From: Lujinxingiaceae bacterium
Lineage (GTDB): Bacteria; Myxococcota_A; Bradymonadia; Bradymonadales; Bradymonadaceae
Assembly: GCA_013697635.1 (NCBI GenBank)
Contig: JACCWM010000068.1
Coordinates: forward strand, 1-61,913
DNA: 61,913 nt
Reading direction: 5' to 3'
Each line of letters opens with the position of its first letter. The stretch's first letter is position 1. Under the pieces are notes generated by a model. The model was not told the DNA's origin. It ran no database searches and saw nothing but the letters and a program-made list of their open reading frames with translations. Both the position numbers and the translations under genes were made by a program. Below are positions 52,334 to 61,696 of the stretch, piece by piece.

Positions 52334-53866
52334 TTACGGCGTAAAGCGCAGCATCAGCACCAGATCGTCGGCGCGCACCTGGGATCCGACCACGCGCAGC
52401 GGGGTGCCCGGGTCAAGGGGCAGCGGCAGGCTGAACTGACCGTCGAGGGCCAGGAAGAGCAGGCGGCGAGCCCAGCGGTTGCGGTCGTTGTCGTCGGGTG
52501 CGTCGGCGAGCCACGGGGAGCTGAGCTGGACGTTTTGCACCTCGACGGTGTCGACGTCGAAGCCGATCAACCCGGGCAAATCGGCGCGCGGGCGCAGGCC
52601 GAGCTCGACGCTGGTCGTGATGCTGACGATGCGCACGAGCACGCCGTAGACCTCGGCGTAGAGATCCACGGTGAGGTTCTCCCAGCTCAAGAGGATGTCG
52701 TTTCGATCGGGGCGAGTTTTGAGCCGGGGCAGCGAGCCGGGGCTGGTCAAGAGGCGCGCCCAGGGGCCGATCGGCACGTGGGCCAGGCCGATGTCTTCGA
52801 GGCGAAGGCTGTCGCCAGGGATGACCTCGCGGTTTTCGTCGGCCGGTCGCGGGTCTTCGAGCCCGCGGCAGATAAAGCCGGCGCTGGTTGCGGCCTGGGC
52901 GGTGCGCTCGAGCAGAGGTGTGGCAATAGCCAGGCCGACGTCGGCCGTGAACTGCTCGAGCAAGGCGACCGGAATCGGGGCGGTCGCGCCGACGTTGGGC
53001 GCGTCAAGGCCCACGGCCGGGGCACAGCCTGCGCGGCGTTGGCTTATCGCCATGTCGAGGCCGGCCTCGAGGCCTCGCGAGCTCAAGCCAATCGGATCGG
53101 TGGCGGCCATCTGACCGATCACCAAGATGTTGCCGCGGCGGTTCTCAAAGGCGCTCACTCGGGAGAGCTCGACGCGGCGGCGAATCAGGCCGAGCGTGTC
53201 CAACGGCGAGTCGCGAAATGCGGCGTTGGCGGAGTGGGTGAGGCCTTCTTCGACGTATTCGAGTAACAAATCATCGAGGGACTCCTCGAGCGTCCAGCGC
53301 TCCCCATCGAGCGGGACGCAGGGGCCGATGGGGCGCGTCTTGACGCCGGAGATTTCGACCTCGGTGTGCGATGCGCCGCCCAGTGTCACGCCCTCGGAGG
53401 TGGTGGCAACGTTGATCGTTGCACGAATGTCGACGGCGTCCATCGTCACGGCAAAGCGGCAAATCTGGACCGAGATGTTGTCCTGGACGCGCACGGGCAC
53501 ATAGATCGTCGGCTTAATCAGCACCAGCGAGGCGATCATCGCCTCGCCAAGCGGCGTCACCGCCCAGCGCTCGATCGCCAGATCTTGCTCGAGCGGGCCA
53601 AAGCGCAGCCGGCGCGTCGCGTCGTCGATCCAGAGCGGCTCATTGTCCAGCCCAAAGCCCGCTGGCGACGAGGTGCGATAGAGCGACTCGAGGCCGCGCG
53701 GGGTGACCAGAACACGCAGCGCGTCGGTTTGCATCACCGGCGCCTGGGTCAAGCCGCCGCCCTCGCGAAAGCGTATTTCGTCGCAACCGGCCGTCGCAAA
53801 AGCGGCGAGCAAGGCGGTCACCAAAGCGGTCATCATCATCGGCCGGCGCAGCGACGAGGGGCTCAT
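52334..53866 (-). CDS. lipoprotein of unknown function
   Basis: This 510-residue lipoprotein has the signal RPMMMTALVTALLAAF ending ATAGC. The body alternates strands and helices, with IRATINVATTSEGVTLGG and LLEYVEEGLTHSANAAF. No family was recognised, though the layout resembles the first half of the giant protein encoded at 55236-59441. The ATG overlaps the stop of the upstream gene (ATGA at 53866-53863). It is the last gene of the surface-protein cluster. Confidence 0.86.
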   Translation of the reverse strand: MSPSSLRRPMMMTALVTALLAAFATAGCDEIRFREGGGLTQAPVMQTDALRVLVTPRGLESLYRTSSPAGFGLDNEPLWIDDATRRLRFGPLEQDLAIERWAVTPLGEAMIASLVLIKPTIYVPVRVQDNISVQICRFAVTMDAVDIRATINVATTSEGVTLGGASHTEVEISGVKTRPIGPCVPLDGERWTLEESLDDLLLEYVEEGLTHSANAAFRDSPLDTLGLIRRRVELSRVSAFENRRGNILVIGQMAATDPIGLSSRGLEAGLDMAISQRRAGCAPAVGLDAPNVGATAPIPVALLEQFTADVGLAIATPLLERTAQAATSAGFICRGLEDPRPADENREVIPGDSLRLEDIGLAHVPIGPWARLLTSPGSLPRLKTRPDRNDILLSWENLTVDLYAEVYGVLVRIVSITTSVELGLRPRADLPGLIGFDVDTVEVQNVQLSSPWLADAPDDNDRNRWARRLLFLALDGQFSLPLPLDPGTPLRVVGSQVRADDLVLMLRFTP

Positions 53867-55212
53867 TGTTTGCCGTCCCAGATCAAGACCAGACGTGAGG
53901 AGAGCCCCTGGGCGGTGGGAACGAGCCGCTCGGCGGCGACGATGTGGCCGATGCTCGCGTCGTAGATCTGGTCGGCAAAAAAGCCCACCGGTCCCTGGGC
54001 GTCCAGCGTGCGCTGCAGCCAGCGGCCGCTGCCATTGGCCTCGGCCAGGCGGTGGGCGCCACGAAGGTGCGTGCGCGTGGCATTCATGTACGCCAGGCGA
54101 GGGGTGCCGCTGTCGTCGAAGACCAGGCGGGTGAATGCGCCGACGAGTTGCTTTTGTTGCTGGGAGAACTCATCGAGCTCGAAGCCCGGGTCGGCGACCT
54201 CACGTTTGAACTGGCCTTCGCGGGCGCTGGCATACATGACGCGCCCGCGCGAGACGTCATGGTAGGCCACGGCGATGCGTCCGGCCTCGTCAAAGGCCAG
54301 CGATGGAAAGCGGCCGACCACGCCGCGCTCGTGCAGGCGCACGGCCTCGACGTCGGCGTCGCCGGTGTCCACGACGCTGACCACCCATTCTTTGTCCACG
54401 CGGCGCGCCAGGCGCAAGTCCCCGCAGTCGGCGTCGTGGTAGGCGACGTAGAGATCTTCGCCGCGCCCGCGCACCGTGGGCTCGATGCCCACGCCCAGGC
54501 GCGCGGCCAGGCGACGCTCGGCGCTGCAGACGAGCTGGGACTGCTGGGAGCTGGCGTCGTCGACCGTCTCGAGTTGCCAGCGGCGCGCGCCATCGGCCCG
54601 GCTCAGCCGGCGCAGGGCGCGCAGCCGGCTGTCGTGAAACACCAGATGCACATGCTCGCGCGCGTCGATCGTCAGATCGAACTCTTCGGAGCCGCTGTAC
54701 TCGAGGGCGGTGTCCTGCTCGGAGAGCGCGATCAGCGTCGCCTCCCAGTGGTCGTTTGCGCCTCGAGCGGCGCGCGTGGCGATCTGGTAGACGCCGCCCT
54801 CATCGAGCCATGCCACGGCCACCGTACGCGGCGACGACGCCAGGGCGATGCGTTTGCCCGCCGGGCGCCCAAAACGGTGCAGCGTGTGAAATGCGCGCGA
54901 GCTCGGCGTTGCCGTGCCAACGAGCAGCGCGCCGGTCTGCGGCTCAATGACGGCCAGCGCAATGCGCGAGCCCTCGGGCGCGATGCGCACCGCGCGGCCC
55001 GGTATGAAGTCGTCAAAGGGCTCGAGCGCGATCTCCTCGCAGATGCCGCTGCTCGCGGTGCAGGCTGTGCCCGCCGGGCAGGGCGGACAGCTCAGCGGCT
55101 TCTCGACCTTGCAGCCGCCAACCGCCATCAACACCGACATCGCAGCCGCTGCCGCCGCAATGCGCCGCCCAGCTTGTCCGTAACCTATCGGTGTGCGTGT
55201 CGCATGGGACAT
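53863..55212 (-). CDS. lipoprotein with sialidase-like/BNR features
   Basis: This 449-residue lipoprotein has an N-terminal basic region, a hydrophobic stretch ending VGGC, and a short Cys-rich segment (CPPCPAGTACTASSGIC). The remainder shows repeats with HLVFHDSRLRALR, then YVAYHDADCGDLRLAR and IAVAYHDVSRGRVMYAS. These are spaced like blades of a beta-propeller. The same pattern (Y/F-HD or Y-x-D followed by aromatic residues) recurs in the second half of the upstream giant protein. It is coupled to the next gene. Confidence 0.86.
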   Translation of the reverse strand: MSHATRTPIGYGQAGRRIAAAAAAMSVLMAVGGCKVEKPLSCPPCPAGTACTASSGICEEIALEPFDDFIPGRAVRIAPEGSRIALAVIEPQTGALLVGTATPSSRAFHTLHRFGRPAGKRIALASSPRTVAVAWLDEGGVYQIATRAARGANDHWEATLIALSEQDTALEYSGSEEFDLTIDAREHVHLVFHDSRLRALRRLSRADGARRWQLETVDDASSQQSQLVCSAERRLAARLGVGIEPTVRGRGEDLYVAYHDADCGDLRLARRVDKEWVVSVVDTGDADVEAVRLHERGVVGRFPSLAFDEAGRIAVAYHDVSRGRVMYASAREGQFKREVADPGFELDEFSQQQKQLVGAFTRLVFDDSGTPRLAYMNATRTHLRGAHRLAEANGSGRWLQRTLDAQGPVGFFADQIYDASIGHIVAAERLVPTAQGLSSRLVLIWDGKQ

Positions 55213-55235
55213 CGGCGCTCGCGGTGTTGATCGAC

Positions 55236-58200
55236 TCAGGGGAGGCGGTGAAAGATCGGACGGGCCTCAATCGGATCACTCTGGTTGTTGATGACCGACT
55301 CGACGGCAATCGACGCGCCCGGCTGCACCAGCATCGTGCCATAGAAACCATGAGCACCCGAATAAGGATTCCCGGCCGTGCCCAGCCCGCTGATCGTCCA
55401 GGCGTTGTTGTCACGCACTGCGCTGTAGAGCACGTGGTGCGTAGCATCCTGGAAGATCACTTGCAGGCGATCTTGGCCCAGTGCGCGAAGCGTCACGCTC
55501 TCGCCAATCTGGGAGACCGTCCAGCCCTGCGCCGTGTCGCGCGCGCCGTCCATGATCACCTGGGGCACGCTGTTGGGCGTCCAGTAGACCAGGGCCGGGA
55601 TCGTCGGCTCCATGTAGGCCAGGTGCAGCGTGCCGTCTGCGTCGATCAACCCGGAGCCGTAAGGCCCCGACGCCACACCCAGAAACTGCGGCATGTCCCA
55701 CTGGCCTTCGGTCTGCTCGACCCAGGCCATCGACTCGAGGTTGTGGTCGTAGAAGACGGCGAGCAGGCCGGTGGGCGTGCGCGTCAGCTGGGTGAACAGG
55801 CCGGTGGCCTTGGGGTAGCCCGGCGGCCCGGCCGCTGCGGCCGTGTCGGGCGCCGTGTAGAGCACGACCGGCTCCGGGGCGAGCGTGGCCAGCGGTGTCG
55901 ACGCCTCAAAGCTCAGGTAGCGAAGCTCGCTTGCGCCCTCGATGCCGCGCGTCGAGTAGACCAGGTGCACCGTGCCATCGACGAGCTGCGCGCTGTTCCA
56001 AAAACCGCTGTCGCCGGCCGTGTCGAGCGTCTTGAACGCGAAGCCGTAGGTGGTGCCCGAGGCCGTGCCACGCGCGTATTTGAGCGCTTTGTTGGTGACG
56101 TCGCGGTAGAAGACATGGAGCACGGCATTGGCGTCGACCAGGATCGCGGTGTGCGTTCCCACGGTGTCGCCGCGCGTGCTGATGCCGCCGCGCGGGCCTT
56201 CGAGATTGCCCGTGACCTCGCCATTGGCCGGTACGCCGTCGACCCAGTACCAGGTCGGCACCAGCGCGGCGTCGAGCGTGGCGACCATCAAGTCGCGGTA
56301 GGTGCGGTTGTAGACGCTGGCTGCGGTGAGCGTGCCGTTGGTCGCCACGGACGCGTAAGGCCCGTGCCAGCCCATCGGCAGATTCGCCAGCGCCTGGCAG
56401 GTGCAGCTTGCGCCGCTGACCTGGCAGGTGTTGGCATCGCCACTGCCGCGGCTTTGCAGGATCGGCTCATAGCCGGTGTCACAGACCAGGCCCACGCAGG
56501 GATCGGCGATGTTCTGGCACTGGTTCTTGCTGTGGCAGCAGAATTGCTCGCTGCCACAGCCCGAGGCGCAATAGCTCTCACAGGCGCAGTAGCCTTCGTT
56601 GCAGATGCCAAAGGCATTGGCGTCGCACGCGGCGTTGCACTCGCTGTTCTCGCGGCAGCCGGCCACGCACTCGCCGTCGCGACAAACGCCGGCGGCGCAG
56701 TCGTCGGTGCTCGAGCAGGGCGCCGGCACGCAGGCGCCGTCCTTGCACTCGAAGCCGTCAAGGCAACCCTCGCTGCACTGTTTGTTGTCGTTGTTGGTCT
56801 TGGTTGCACCGGTGTCGTCGCTGCACGCCATGGTAAAGAGCGTGGCCAGCGCGAGCAGCGCGATGAGGCCGCGGCTGAGCTTGAGGCGGCGGCGACGCCC
56901 GACGAGCAGACCCAGGCCGACGAGCACGAGCAGGCCAAAGTCGCCGGCGCTGCCGGCGTTGCCCGTCGAGGCGCAACCACAGCCTGCCTGGCCGGAGCCG
57001 GTGTCGCTGGCCACGGGGCCTGCGAGCTCGAGCGGCTGGCGGCGCAACGTGCGCGAAGCGCTCGTTACGAAGCCGGCGCGATCGCGCACCTCAGCCTCGA
57101 TGCGCGCAAGCTCGGGAAGCGACATCGCCGACAGCTCCAGGGTGTTCTCGCTCGACCAGTCCGACCAGGCGCCAAGCTCGCCGTCGCCGACCACGCGGTG
57201 GCGGTAGACGAGCTGGTGAGCGGCGTCGACGACATCGAGGCCGCGAAGCACCAGTTGATCGCCGCCGCCTTCGATCTCGAGGCTGGGGGCTTCGTAATCG
57301 ATCCTGACGCCGAGCTCGGTGGCCACGCGCTGGGCCGTCGTCGACTCGCCCTGGTAGCGCGCGCGCAGCTCGATGCGATGCTCGCCCTGCAGCGCAAAGA
57401 GCGGGTCGTCGAGCACGAGCTTGTCGGTGGCCTGAAAGAGGCTCCAGCTGCCGCCGTCGACGCGGTAGCTAAACTCCACGCTGGCCGCATCGATAGTATT
57501 CAGCCCGGCGCCCATGGCGATCATCTCGAGCGTGACCTGCGGGCGAACGATGCCCGAGGCGCTCTTGTGGCTGGTGTCGACCTCGTGGTGGCGCACGATC
57601 GCGTTGAGATTCGAGACCATCGGCTGGCCGACCTTCTCGAGGTCGGCAAAGAGCGCGACGAAGGTGTTGTTGTCGACGCTGGTGATGTCTTGCTGGCGCA
57701 AGGCGACCCGGTAGCCAAAGAACTCCGGCAGCGAGAACGAAGTGTCCAAGGCCTCGGTGAGCGCGGGCAGCGCGAAGCCAAAGAGCGTCGGCAGCAGATC
57801 GATGAGTTTTTGGGGATCTTCGGCGATAAGCTCCGAGCCCACCGGGCGCATGTTGGTCAGCGCCTCGTCGATCTTGCCCAGCACCGGCTTCACCTCACCC
57901 AGGCCGTCGGGCACGATCGCTATGGGCAACAAGATGTCGGTGCGAATCGTGAAGAGGCGAACGTAGCGGTCCTGGACAAAGCCGTACATGTGGATGTCGA
58001 CGTCCTTCCAGTCGAGCGTGATCAGGCCCTCCTCGATCGTGGTCGTCGTGCCCTGGACGCGAATCGTGTTCGCGCCGAGCACCATGTCGGGCGCGTTTTG
58101 CGGCGTCAACTGGATGTAGAGCGCGCTGTTGCCGTCGGCCAGGTTGCGAACGCTGGGCAGCAGCGCGCCGATGGCACCGGTGGAGAGCAGCTCGACGGAC

Positions 58201-59441
58201 TCGCTCGAGACCTTGATGCAAAGCGCTCCGCTGGCCCAGGTCGACCACATCATGTGCTGCAACGCGCGGCGGTGAAGCCCAAAGCCTATCATGAAGGGAT
58301 CGCCCGAGCCCGGACGGGTGTTGCCGGTGATCGTCGTCGAGAGCGGGATCGGCGCAAAGCCGGGGCGCGTGGTCGGATCGACCGGAACGCAGCGCTCCAG
58401 ATGCTCGGGCTGAAAGCCGGTGCGAAGGCCCAGGTTCAGGCCCGTGTTGACGCTGGCGTGGTCGGCGGCGCGCAGCATCACGTCGACGCTGGCCTCGGGG
58501 GTCTGCGTGTAGCCGGTCAAAAGCTCACCGAGCAGCAGCCCGCCCTCGACGCCCAGCACGCGTGGCACGCACTCGGAGGTGGCGTTGTACTGACAGATCT
58601 GGGAGCCCTCGACGCTCTGGCAGGTCGCGTTGTTCGGGCAGGCCTCCTCACCGGCGCCGCAGGGGCGGCAGAGCTGCTCGCGCACGACGTCCTGCACGAC
58701 CGAGTTGAGCTGCTTTTTGAGCTCGTCGTAGATGATGCCGCGCACAAGGCCCTTGAGCAGGTTTGCCCCGACGCACTGCCCGTTGCCCGTGATGTTGAAG
58801 TCGAGCTCGGTCAGGTCGGCTTCGACCTCGCCCACGGCGATCTTGAGATCGCGCGTGGGGCTGTTGGCGTCGATCGTGAAGTCGACCGGGATCGTGGCCG
58901 GGATGGCGGCCGCTACACCCGTGCCGGCGCCGCGCTTGTGCAGCTTGACGTTGCAGCGCGCCGTACCCAAAATTCCCATGTTGTAGTTGACCGAGAGCGT
59001 CTCGTTGACGTCGCCAATGGTCATCTCGACGATCAGACGATTGGGCGGCGACGGCTTGAGCGCGCTCTGATCGATCGTCAGATCGATCTGGCAGCCCTCG
59101 TTGCCATCGCGGCATACCTCGCCATTCATGCACATCTCGGGATTGCCGCCCACGCTCTTGGGAAGACAAAAGCTCAGCCCGCCAGGCACGGCCTCGGTGA
59201 TCAGGTTGGGGATCTCCTTGCCGAGAAAGGCCAGGCCATGCGAGCTCAGGCGCACCTGGCCGCTGACGGGCACGGTCTTGTCGTAGTGCTCTTGAGGAAA
59301 GGCGCGCTGCTCAAAGCCCGAGCAACTGCAGCTATCGGTTGAGCACGCCGCGAGCAGCACGGCGCACATGATCAACGCGTGCGTGGGTTGCCAATGCAAA
59401 TGGAGCTTTGGGAGCCGGTCGATGAGCAACTGGAGTGACAT
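55236..59441 (-). CDS. very large surface protein: MYXO-CTERM-like protein fused in frame to a Cys-rich propeller lipoprotein
   Basis: Using ATG 59441 the protein has 1401 residues and a lipobox signal (ALIMCAVLLAAC). Residues to about 815 form one unit with strand-rich domains and a Cys-rich insert. Next comes a MYXO-CTERM-like segment: AGCGCASTG (Cys821, Cys823), a hydrophobic stretch (FGLLVLVGLGLLVG) and RRRR. Only about 30 residues later a second lipobox-type signal follows (LIALLALATLFTMAC, Cys873), then CSDDTGATKTNNDN, Cys-rich modules and a propeller-like region to the end. There is no stop between the halves and no ATG or GTG right after RRRR. This looks like a gene fusion, or possibly a sequencing artefact. 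Confidence 0.88.
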   Translation of the reverse strand: MSLQLLIDRLPKLHLHWQPTHALIMCAVLLAACSTDSCSCSGFEQRAFPQEHYDKTVPVSGQVRLSSHGLAFLGKEIPNLITEAVPGGLSFCLPKSVGGNPEMCMNGEVCRDGNEGCQIDLTIDQSALKPSPPNRLIVEMTIGDVNETLSVNYNMGILGTARCNVKLHKRGAGTGVAAAIPATIPVDFTIDANSPTRDLKIAVGEVEADLTELDFNITGNGQCVGANLLKGLVRGIIYDELKKQLNSVVQDVVREQLCRPCGAGEEACPNNATCQSVEGSQICQYNATSECVPRVLGVEGGLLLGELLTGYTQTPEASVDVMLRAADHASVNTGLNLGLRTGFQPEHLERCVPVDPTTRPGFAPIPLSTTITGNTRPGSGDPFMIGFGLHRRALQHMMWSTWASGALCIKVSSESVELLSTGAIGALLPSVRNLADGNSALYIQLTPQNAPDMVLGANTIRVQGTTTTIEEGLITLDWKDVDIHMYGFVQDRYVRLFTIRTDILLPIAIVPDGLGEVKPVLGKIDEALTNMRPVGSELIAEDPQKLIDLLPTLFGFALPALTEALDTSFSLPEFFGYRVALRQQDITSVDNNTFVALFADLEKVGQPMVSNLNAIVRHHEVDTSHKSASGIVRPQVTLEMIAMGAGLNTIDAASVEFSYRVDGGSWSLFQATDKLVLDDPLFALQGEHRIELRARYQGESTTAQRVATELGVRIDYEAPSLEIEGGGDQLVLRGLDVVDAAHQLVYRHRVVGDGELGAWSDWSSENTLELSAMSLPELARIEAEVRDRAGFVTSASRTLRRQPLELAGPVASDTGSGQAGCGCASTGNAGSAGDFGLLVLVGLGLLVGRRRRLKLSRGLIALLALATLFTMACSDDTGATKTNNDNKQCSEGCLDGFECKDGACVPAPCSSTDDCAAGVCRDGECVAGCRENSECNAACDANAFGICNEGYCACESYCASGCGSEQFCCHSKNQCQNIADPCVGLVCDTGYEPILQSRGSGDANTCQVSGASCTCQALANLPMGWHGPYASVATNGTLTAASVYNRTYRDLMVATLDAALVPTWYWVDGVPANGEVTGNLEGPRGGISTRGDTVGTHTAILVDANAVLHVFYRDVTNKALKYARGTASGTTYGFAFKTLDTAGDSGFWNSAQLVDGTVHLVYSTRGIEGASELRYLSFEASTPLATLAPEPVVLYTAPDTAAAAGPPGYPKATGLFTQLTRTPTGLLAVFYDHNLESMAWVEQTEGQWDMPQFLGVASGPYGSGLIDADGTLHLAYMEPTIPALVYWTPNSVPQVIMDGARDTAQGWTVSQIGESVTLRALGQDRLQVIFQDATHHVLYSAVRDNNAWTISGLGTAGNPYSGAHGFYGTMLVQPGASIAVESVINNQSDPIEARPIFHRLP

Positions 59442-59510
59442 GGGTGGTTTCTCGTCATGCGGGTGGTTGGCAACACACCAGGACATTGAAGGAACGAATT
59501 CGCTAAAAAA

Positions 59511-60893
59511 TCAGTCGGACAAGAGCTCCGAGGCATTGGCTTTCAAGTAATCGATGTAGTAGCCGGCCTCGCGGCCGCTTTCGATGAGTCCCTCGATGAT
59601 ATGTTCTTCGAGAACACACTTCAACTCCCCGACGCGAGGGCCGGCTTTGAGCCCTAGAGAGGCCATCAGCGCCGCTCCGATGCCGCTGGGCAAAACGGGG
59701 CGCAGGTCGTCGCGGGCGGCCAGGCTCTCGATGCGCTCGGTGAGCTGCTCGATCTTTGCCAGGGCCTCCTTGCGCTTGTCGTCGATGCGCGTGGTCAGAT
59801 CGGCGCGGGCAAACTCGAGCAGGCTCTCGACAAAGGGGTCGAGCTCGCGCACCAGGCGGCGAACGGCGGCGTCCGACCAGCCACTCTCGTATTGCGGGGC
59901 GCGCCCGTGATGGCGGATGATGAAGCCGACCTCCTTGGCCATCGCGTTGTCAAAGGCGAAGCGCTTGGCAATTCCCTCGAAGAGCATTGCGCCTTGTTGC
60001 TCGTGGCGATAGAAGGTCACGCTGGCGTCGTCGTGCACGACGCGCGTCCAGGCCTTTCCGACGTCGTGGAGCAGCGCCGCCCAGCGCAGCGCCTCGCGCT
60101 CGGGGGCCTGCTCGATCACCTGCAGGGTGTGCTCCCAGACGTCTTTGTGGTGCACCGCGCTGCTCTCGTGCAGGCCAACGAGCGAGGCGACCTCGGGCAA
60201 CAAGATCCCCAGCAGGCGCACCTCATGCAAAAAGCGCAGCGCCCTGGCGACGTGCTGGCCCCGCAGCATCTTGTTCATCTCCTGGAGCCAGCGCTCGCGG
60301 CTGATGTCTAGGATATGGTCGGCGCGCTCAAAGGCGGCCAGGCGCAAGCTCTCGTCGACCTTAAAGCCAAGCCGGCTGATGAAGCGCCCGATGCGCAGGA
60401 TGCGCAGCGGGTCTTCGGCCAGCGTCTCGCGCGGATCGCCGACCACGCGCAAGATGCCGTTTCGCAGATCGTCGAGGCCGCCGTAGGGGTCGATGAAGTT
60501 GCCGTCGACGTCGAGCGCCATCGAATTGATGCTGAAATCGCGCCGCCCCAGATCTTGCTCGATCGTGTCGCCGTACTTGACCACCGGGTGGCGGCTGCCG
60601 CGCCGATAGTACTCCTCGGAGCGATAGGTCGTGACCTGGCAATCCTTGGGAAAGCCCTCGGCACGAGAGCCCTGCAAGACGGCGCCGACGGTGCCAAACT
60701 CGATGCCCACCTCATAGTGGGTGAGCCGGGCACCCTTGATGATCTGCAAAGACTCCTGCGGGCGCGCGTTGGTACAAAAATCCAGATCGTCGAGCTCCTC
60801 GAGCGACTTGCCCAACGCCAGATCGCGCACCGCTCCGCCGACCAAAAAGAGCTCCTTGCCCGCGTCGTGAAAGGCTTTGAAAAGTCGTTGCAT
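59511..60893 (-). CDS. cca: CCA-adding tRNA nucleotidyltransferase with HD domain
   Basis: This 460-residue class II nucleotidyltransferase adds or repairs the 3' CCA of tRNA. Motifs: LVGGAVRDLALG, the DD-LDFCTNA catalytic Asp region, DFSINSMALDVDGNFIDPYG, then LRILRIGRFISRLGF. The C-terminal HD-type part has RWAALLHDVGKAWT and HH residues in IIRHHGRAP, so a phosphohydrolase activity is possible. The class of enzyme (CCA-adding, A-adding or poly(A)) cannot be settled by eye. It is divergent from the TetR gene. Confidence 0.95.
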   Translation of the reverse strand: MQRLFKAFHDAGKELFLVGGAVRDLALGKSLEELDDLDFCTNARPQESLQIIKGARLTHYEVGIEFGTVGAVLQGSRAEGFPKDCQVTTYRSEEYYRRGSRHPVVKYGDTIEQDLGRRDFSINSMALDVDGNFIDPYGGLDDLRNGILRVVGDPRETLAEDPLRILRIGRFISRLGFKVDESLRLAAFERADHILDISRERWLQEMNKMLRGQHVARALRFLHEVRLLGILLPEVASLVGLHESSAVHHKDVWEHTLQVIEQAPEREALRWAALLHDVGKAWTRVVHDDASVTFYRHEQQGAMLFEGIAKRFAFDNAMAKEVGFIIRHHGRAPQYESGWSDAAVRRLVRELDPFVESLLEFARADLTTRIDDKRKEALAKIEQLTERIESLAARDDLRPVLPSGIGAALMASLGLKAGPRVGELKCVLEEHIIEGLIESGREAGYYIDYLKANASELLSD

Positions 60894-61099: not shown

Positions 61100-61696
61100 A
61101 TGAGTGATTCGACTACGCTTGAAGAGAGCTCGCCACATCGCCGCAAACAACGCCGCCGCATCCTCGAGGCCTTGGCCGAGGTCGTGCAGAGCGAGGGTGT
61201 CCACGCCTTCTCGATGCAACAGGTCGCCGACCAGGCCGGCCTCTCCCATCGCACGCTCTACCGCTACTTTCCCACGCGCCAGGACCTGCTCGACGGCCTC
61301 GTGACCCACTACGAGGGCTACGTTCACGATCCCGAGATCGACAATCTCGAGGGCCTGCTGCCCCACATGGCCTTGCTCTTTGGCCGCTTCGAGCGCTACC
61401 CCAACGAGAGCGCCGTGGGAGCGATCGGGGCCCTGGTGATGGGCCGACAATTCTCCACGCGCGCGCGCCGCGACGCGCTGGTCTTCGAGTTCGTCGAACA
61501 GCTCCGAGACCCCGAGAGCTCGGTCAGCGCGCGCGAGGCCGGCGCGATCATCCGCTACCTGGCAAATTCGCTCTGCTGGCTGGTCTTGCGACGCCAGCTC
61601 GGCTTGAGCCAGGATGAGAGCGTTCGCGCCGTGCAGTGGGCGCTCGAGACGCTGATCGCCGAGATCAAGAAGGGCAACGGCCCCGGCAAGGCTTGA
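61100..61696 (+). CDS. TetR-family transcriptional regulator
   Basis: This 198-residue protein has the TetR DNA-binding region at about residues 15-60 (RRRILEALAEVVQSEGVHAF, then QQVADQAGLSHRTLYRYFPT). A variable helical ligand-binding domain follows. It is divergent from cca with about 206 bp between starts. The target and effector are unknown. Repeats downstream mark the window edge. Confidence 0.95.
   Translation: MSDSTTLEESSPHRRKQRRRILEALAEVVQSEGVHAFSMQQVADQAGLSHRTLYRYFPTRQDLLDGLVTHYEGYVHDPEIDNLEGLLPHMALLFGRFERYPNESAVGAIGALVMGRQFSTRARRDALVFEFVEQLRDPESSVSAREAGAIIRYLANSLCWLVLRRQLGLSQDESVRAVQWALETLIAEIKKGNGPGKA

Follow-up and report, generated by a model that had tools for sequence, protein, structure and literature searches.

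The window analysed here is the whole contig JACCWM010000068.1 (61,913 nt) of a Lujinxingiaceae bacterium (GCA_013697635.1). This organism belongs to the Bradymonadia (Myxococcota), whose order Bradymonadales consists of predatory bacteria (PMC11509652, PMC7460792). An open reading frame (ORF) of the window encodes a chain with a lipoprotein signal at the N-terminus, a MYXO-CTERM sorting signal in the interior and a second lipoprotein signal directly behind it. The first-pass annotation of the contig had given the correct interval for this ORF, but the gene is on the minus strand. Two candidate start codons were found, ATG 59486 and ATG 59441, and the shorter form is closer to the relatives. 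Residue numbers in this text refer to the 1416-aa form, and those of the first-pass annotation, counted from ATG 59441, are lower by 15. The features of the gene are the following:

55236–59486, minus strand: fused two-lipoprotein ORF, 1416 aa from the first ATG (59486) or 1401 aa from ATG 59441
59331–59357, minus strand: first lipobox LLAAC-STDS; Cys48, invariant in an alignment of 20 members, is the predicted start of the first mature lipoprotein
56982–59345, minus strand: N-terminal half (residues 48–835), a probable BPI/LBP-like (TULIP) region followed by FN3/Ig-like beta domains (PF01273 below cut-off, structure model)
56880–56987, minus strand: internal MYXO-CTERM with C836-G-C838, a hydrophobic stretch (850–863) and RRRR (864–867); TIGR03901 match at 834–867
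56826–56885, minus strand: second signal segment LKLSRGLIALLALATLFTMA (868–887), without a usable start codon
56808–56825, minus strand: second lipobox cysteine, Cys888, the predicted N-terminus of a second mature lipoprotein (CSDDTG...)
55239–56825, minus strand: C-terminal half (residues 888–1416), predicted Cys-rich modules and beta-propeller

The first lipoprotein signal (LLAAC48) and the C836-G-C838 motif are separated by about 790 residues. The RRRR motif is followed by L868-K-L-S-R and then by a hydrophobic segment (873–887) that ends in LFTMA-C888. Behind Cys888 there is a Cys-rich region and then about 400 more residues. The invariant Cys, the hydrophobic helix and the Arg cluster that make up the MYXO-CTERM signature are therefore all present within one ORF, as the first-pass annotation had described, yet 549 residues follow RRRR and the signal is internal here, not C-terminal. 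Likewise, the second half has a hydrophobic segment with a lipobox Cys, yet this segment is internal to the chain and not at a translated N-terminus. This second lipobox had also been recognized at first pass, as Cys873 in the shorter numbering, but the spacing of about 30 residues given for it was too long, the distance from RRRR to Cys888 being 21 residues. No stop codon was found between the two halves. When the stretch from RRRR to Cys888 was scanned for ATG, GTG and TTG, a single ATG was found two codons ahead of Cys888. Because this ATG is too near Cys888 to yield a signal peptide, the junction has no usable start codon. The "lipo-invert" family NF058595 was rejected as the identity of the junction, with a score of 13.5 bits versus 37 and with below-cut-off matches in all 14 control genomes too.

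Of the 58 nearest genomes searched, 46 had the protein, mostly in the form of a single ORF of 1300–1600 aa, single-contig genomes included. By profile search, 47 of the 57 genomes of the class and 72 of 141 genomes of a phylum sample had a match, in some of the latter to one half only. The fused homologous ORFs collected numbered 72 and came from 16 family-level groups of Myxococcota and many genera. Lujinxingia vulgaris (NZ_VOSL01000023, locus L121), a cultivable member of the same order Bradymonadales, was among the named relatives with the protein, and the single-contig genomes G005, G007 and G010 carry the fusion. A paralogue in the host genome (L073, contig C79) is likewise fused. The first-pass annotation had named relatives with two separate genes as the observation that would speak against its reading; when the relatives were searched for such genes, the fusion was the majority state and only a few were split. 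In genome G027, two fused homologues were observed head to tail in slightly overlapping ORFs (L090:329–9522, minus strand).

Mean column identity was 35% in the 20-member alignment, where C48, C838 and C888 were invariant and R864 and R865 were at least 90% conserved. The MYXO-type Cys was present in 72/72 fused relatives, and the loop between the two hydrophobic segments had a net charge of +2 or more in all of them (median +4). The residue before the second Cys was G, A or S in 70/72, and the spacing between the MYXO-CTERM Cys and the second Cys was 37–88 residues (median 49.5). When the same lipobox test was applied to control cysteines elsewhere in these proteins, only 10 of 1630 passed, versus 70 of 72 at the junction. 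The fused set was collected by requiring, for most rows, the Cys and a second hydrophobic segment; the 20-member alignment is an independent check because it was made without this requirement. Five close pairs gave ratios of nonsynonymous to synonymous substitution rates (dN/dS) of 0.14–0.28 for the junction. Purifying selection thus acts on this stretch.

In the split relatives L074, L135, L155, L156 and L157, gene 1 ends in a MYXO-CTERM, gene 2 opens with a lipoprotein signal, and the two genes overlap by 4 nt (GTGA or ATGA). In genome G051, gene 1 ends with GGCGGCSAGHG...GLRRRRRGEDQ-stop, and the start of gene 2 is either the GTGA overlap or an ATG located 20 nt further on, with the sequence MSKTRLALLAALAALAFGCDD. 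The main gene is fused in G029, a congener of G051. The same kind of split, each time with a 4-nt overlap, is found in G063 and in three members (G029, G038 and G051) of a paralogue group that is more distant. In a quick tree of the C-terminal half, at least six changes between the fused and the split state were counted, irrespective of direction. The fused and split states are interchangeable. Two genomes of family f12 have an N-terminal half without a MYXO-CTERM, and in both of them each half has its own gene; a fused protein without a MYXO-CTERM was not found among the 72. The presence of the MYXO-CTERM in all fused forms fits the proposed topology, because the second signal would be misoriented in the membrane if no stop-transfer helix preceded it. 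The reading of the junction, the 72 fused homologues and the split relatives with matching signals bear out the first-pass view of two exported proteins joined without a stop or start codon.

The host genome encodes two copies of LspA, three of Lgt and one myxosortase candidate, a CPBP protein on contig C15 (L081:1614–3071, plus strand). The latter contains EEFFYR and HASCN (the EExxxR and H motifs) and matches Pfam PF02517 over its cut-off. The "sortase-like" enzyme proposed at first pass would be a myxosortase (CPBP/Rce1-like) and not a sortase. An unusual insertion of about 100 residues separates the transmembrane parts of the CPBP protein. In M. xanthus as well as in E. coli, the myxosortase MrtX was shown to cleave the C-terminal MYXO-CTERM of TraA (PMC11980579). 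Proteins of the TraA type share with the window ORF the Cys signature, the helix, the Arg cluster and an MrtX-like protease in the genome, but their signal is C-terminal, whereas that of the window ORF is internal and has the 549 residues after it.

We propose that Sec would export the chain, guided by the lipoprotein signal at the N-terminus. The MYXO-CTERM helix within the chain would act as a stop-transfer segment with the Arg cluster remaining in the cytoplasm, and the second hydrophobic segment would act as an internal signal for passage of the second half through the membrane. Cys888 would then be lipidated by Lgt, and LspA (signal peptidase II) would cut ahead of it, while the MrtX-like CPBP protease would cut at the MYXO-CTERM cysteine, probably after lipidation of that Cys. 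A double-spanning hairpin of about 50 residues would be excised and discarded, and two lipoproteins would be released in a 1:1 ratio. The first product would be a BPI/LBP-like lipid-binding protein with lipid at both ends, and the second a Cys-rich beta-propeller protein. We infer in this way the topology, both cleavages, the lipidation, the surface location and the partnership of the halves. At the level of sequence, the ORF is continuous and under selection, both motifs are conserved, the fused and split states are interchangeable and the enzymes are present. We consider it likely, on these sequence features, that the gene encodes a natural two-lipoprotein polyprotein split by myxosortase and signal peptidase II. 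A natural polyprotein had been raised as a possibility at first pass, and it gains support from the recurrence of the single ORF in the 72 homologues of many genera. The arrangement is conserved throughout the phylum, which favours a real, little-charted sort of bacterial polyprotein over a sequencing error.

MYXO-CTERM signals were also inspected in the other proteins of the host and of two further genomes. Nearly all of the 30 matches inspected in the host genome end 0–17 residues before the stop codon, and the exceptions are the window ORF and one protein each on contigs C153 and C20. The protein on C153 (L079:3778–7959, minus strand), an M23-peptidase/FG-GAP protein with the sequence RRRWRDKARLLALGLLIFAVGC, has an internal MYXO-CTERM followed by a lipobox and about 280 more residues. 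It belongs to an unrelated family and has the same joint. The protein on C20 (L080:1589–4096, plus strand) is a lipoprotein with an internal MYXO-CTERM, a type-I-like signal and then a probable outer-membrane barrel (weak Phenol_MetA_deg match), and is comparable to MXAN_5598, which is described below. In the complete genome G010, 41/50 matches were terminal and 9/50 internal. All nine internal signals were directly followed by a second signal, which was a lipobox in four and a type I signal in five. The type I signals end in AxA-like sites and are followed by barrel-like sequence; L277, L279, L280 and L281 are large ORFs with a MYXO-CTERM, a type I signal (AQA/AHA/ARA-like) and barrel-like sequence. 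A 3056-aa ORF of the same genome (L276:3349–12516, plus strand) has an N-terminal lipobox and two internal junctions of MYXO-CTERM and lipobox, and its sequence apparently encodes three exported lipoproteins in one chain. Among the 55 matches examined in G140, 53 were terminal, one was a member of the fused two-lipoprotein family and one had a 44-residue tail without a second signal. On balance, a MYXO-CTERM followed by a new signal peptide of type I or II appears to be a general modular cut-out joint in the Myxococcota, by which two or three surface proteins would be obtained from one translation product in a fixed ratio.

To the N-terminal half, PF01273 (LBP-BPI-CETP) gave 14.1 bits, below the gathering score of 28.8, and a Pfam scan of the A1 members found no family, only stray matches. 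For the AlphaFold2 model of this half, with a low mean predicted local distance difference test score (pLDDT) of 59.8, the best Foldseek matches were 4m4d (LBP, E 1.7e-12) and 1ewf (BPI), and further matches were to other TULIP proteins and to FN3 domains. In this model the N-terminal half looks BPI/LBP-like (TULIP). The model of the C-terminal half (pLDDT 74) was a beta-propeller and matched 8q82 with an E value of 4.4e-10 and a TM-score of 0.68 by target; the best structural matches were Photorhabdus PLL/PHL lectins, which is a likeness of fold only. As modelled, the C-terminal half looks like Cys-rich modules and a beta-propeller. The gene is followed by two others on the same strand:

53863–55212, minus strand: 449-aa putative lipoprotein, a stand-alone relative of the C-half propeller (A1 profile, 59 bits)
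52334–53866, minus strand: 510-aa putative lipoprotein, a weak relative of the N-terminal half, overlapping the preceding gene by 4 nt (ATGA)

The 449-aa gene starts 23 nt after the fused ORF. The interval 52334–55212 (minus strand) thus has a stand-alone version of each half, with the order reversed. Since the two downstream genes resemble the C-terminal and the N-terminal half, both families also occur separately within the same putative operon. The operon is adjoined by a gene for a poly(A) polymerase/CCA-adding type enzyme with an HD domain (59511–60893, minus strand) and by one for a TetR-type regulator (61100–61696, plus strand). Opposite the fused gene there is a 1383-aa plus-strand ORF (55191–59342), which was rejected as a real gene and regarded as an antisense shadow of high-GC codon usage.

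Several points weigh against a polyprotein split by both enzymes. The MYXO-CTERM of the window ORF (residues 834–867) scored 19.5 bits against TIGR03901, with a cut-off of 20, while the orthologues in G010 and G140 exceed this cut-off with 26.3 and 30.2 bits, respectively. The CPBP protein of the host scored 101.9 bits against MrtX (NF040593), with a cut-off of 180. Signal peptides were judged from hydropathy and motif, and in two of the 72 fused relatives the position ahead of the second Cys is occupied by a poor residue. The cleavage, lipidation and localisation of family members are predictions from sequence. Furthermore, the signal presented to LspA would have its n-region attached to a transmembrane helix in front of it, and we know of no published lipoprotein case of this.

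Partial processing, with one cut only, is unlikely. Either LspA would free the C-terminal half and leave the N-terminal half anchored by the hairpin, or MrtX would free the N-terminal half and leave the C-terminal half anchored by its own segment. Some TraA reaches the surface even without the myxosortase (PMC11980579), and the MrtX homologue and the MYXO-CTERM are both under their cut-offs here, as a single cut would allow, but both cysteines are equally invariant. It is quite improbable that the ORF encodes one uncleaved two-domain protein, in which a permanent hairpin would tether both exported domains to the inner membrane and only the N-terminal Cys would be lipidated. Such a protein would need no second processing event and would agree with the conservation of the hairpin and its cationic loop. 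However, it leaves unexplained the retention of both the MYXO-CTERM Cys and the G/A/S-C lipobox, the occurrence of the halves as separate genes with the same terminal signals, and the neighbouring stand-alone putative lipoproteins related to the halves. Separate translation of the halves by internal initiation at the junction, despite the open frame, is hardly credible and was rejected on codon and Shine-Dalgarno counts. An ATG is present at least 14 codons ahead of the second Cys in 15/72 fused ORFs, and the split relatives use 4-nt overlaps, but in the window ORF the stretch from RRRR to Cys888 offers no usable start codon, and there is no stop codon for reinitiation. Neither GTG among Val codons (0.465 at the junction vs 0.436 elsewhere) nor TTG among Leu codons (0.115 vs 0.104) was enriched, and a Shine-Dalgarno-like site was found in only 2/72. 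A sequencing or assembly error (frameshift or chimera) or a recent accidental fusion, alternatives named at first pass with which a draft assembly of 213 contigs would agree, is next to impossible and was rejected given the same fusion in 72 homologues, single-contig genomes among them, the fused paralogue in the same genome and the dN/dS of the junction.

The proposed two-lipoprotein polyprotein was compared with known systems. The Bradyrhizobium FbcH cytochrome b/c1 polyprotein is likewise bacterial, and signal peptidase divides it at a signal peptide in the interior of the chain. Its first half is, in contrast, a polytopic membrane protein, a single enzyme acts on it and it has no sorting signal or lipobox. 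In the Gn/Gc glycoprotein polyprotein of bunyaviruses, an internal signal peptide exports the next protein and signal peptidase separates the two (PMC5113920), but the sequence is unrelated, the signal peptidase is eukaryotic, and there is neither lipidation nor a sorting protease. HVO_0405 of Haloferax volcanii, also a domain-fusion protein with a central sorting signal, was shown by experiment to be cleaved into halves by ArtA (PMC7157517). It differs in that it is archaeal, uses a PGF-CTERM and ArtA and is described as strain-specific; in the available part of that report, no lipoprotein signal is described after the sorting signal (PMC7157517). Guo, Haft and Wall (2025) mentioned internal MYXO-CTERMs as rare (PMC11980579). 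For MXAN_5598 of Myxococcus xanthus, which they regarded as rare and atypical, they suggested, as a proposal only, a fusion of two genes with processing of the N-terminal part (PMC11980579). MXAN_5598 was detected in vesicle proteomes of M. xanthus (PMC4158809). It resembles the window ORF as an exported protein of the same phylum with a mid-protein MYXO-CTERM, but its C-terminal part is an outer-membrane beta-barrel with an OmpA domain and a second signal peptide or lipobox was not described. In the window family, by contrast, the joint consists of a MYXO-CTERM and a lipobox, and 72 homologues conserve it; in G010, internal signals are common (9/50).

Cellular polyproteins are unusual in bacteria, and in the literature no described bacterial polyprotein joining two lipoproteins was found. 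Internal MYXO-CTERMs were already known from Guo, Haft and Wall, as was MXAN_5598 as a possible fusion. As far as the literature found shows, the conserved joint of MYXO-CTERM and lipobox and its phylum-wide spread are new, and so are the natural switching between fused and split genes with 4-nt overlaps, the tendency for a new signal peptide (type I or II) to come after an internal MYXO-CTERM and the triple chain. Gene callers and signal-peptide predictors read protein ends only and therefore miss such proteins. The family would offer a ready reporter for questions on myxosortase, namely the cut site, the lipidation of the Cys and the responsible enzyme, because splitting a chain of 1400 residues would give a large, visible shift in size. 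At one joint, myxosortase would be paired with a processing system independent of it, the Lgt/LspA route, and about one fifth of the MYXO-CTERM proteins in one complete bradymonad (G010) have a signal of the internal type.

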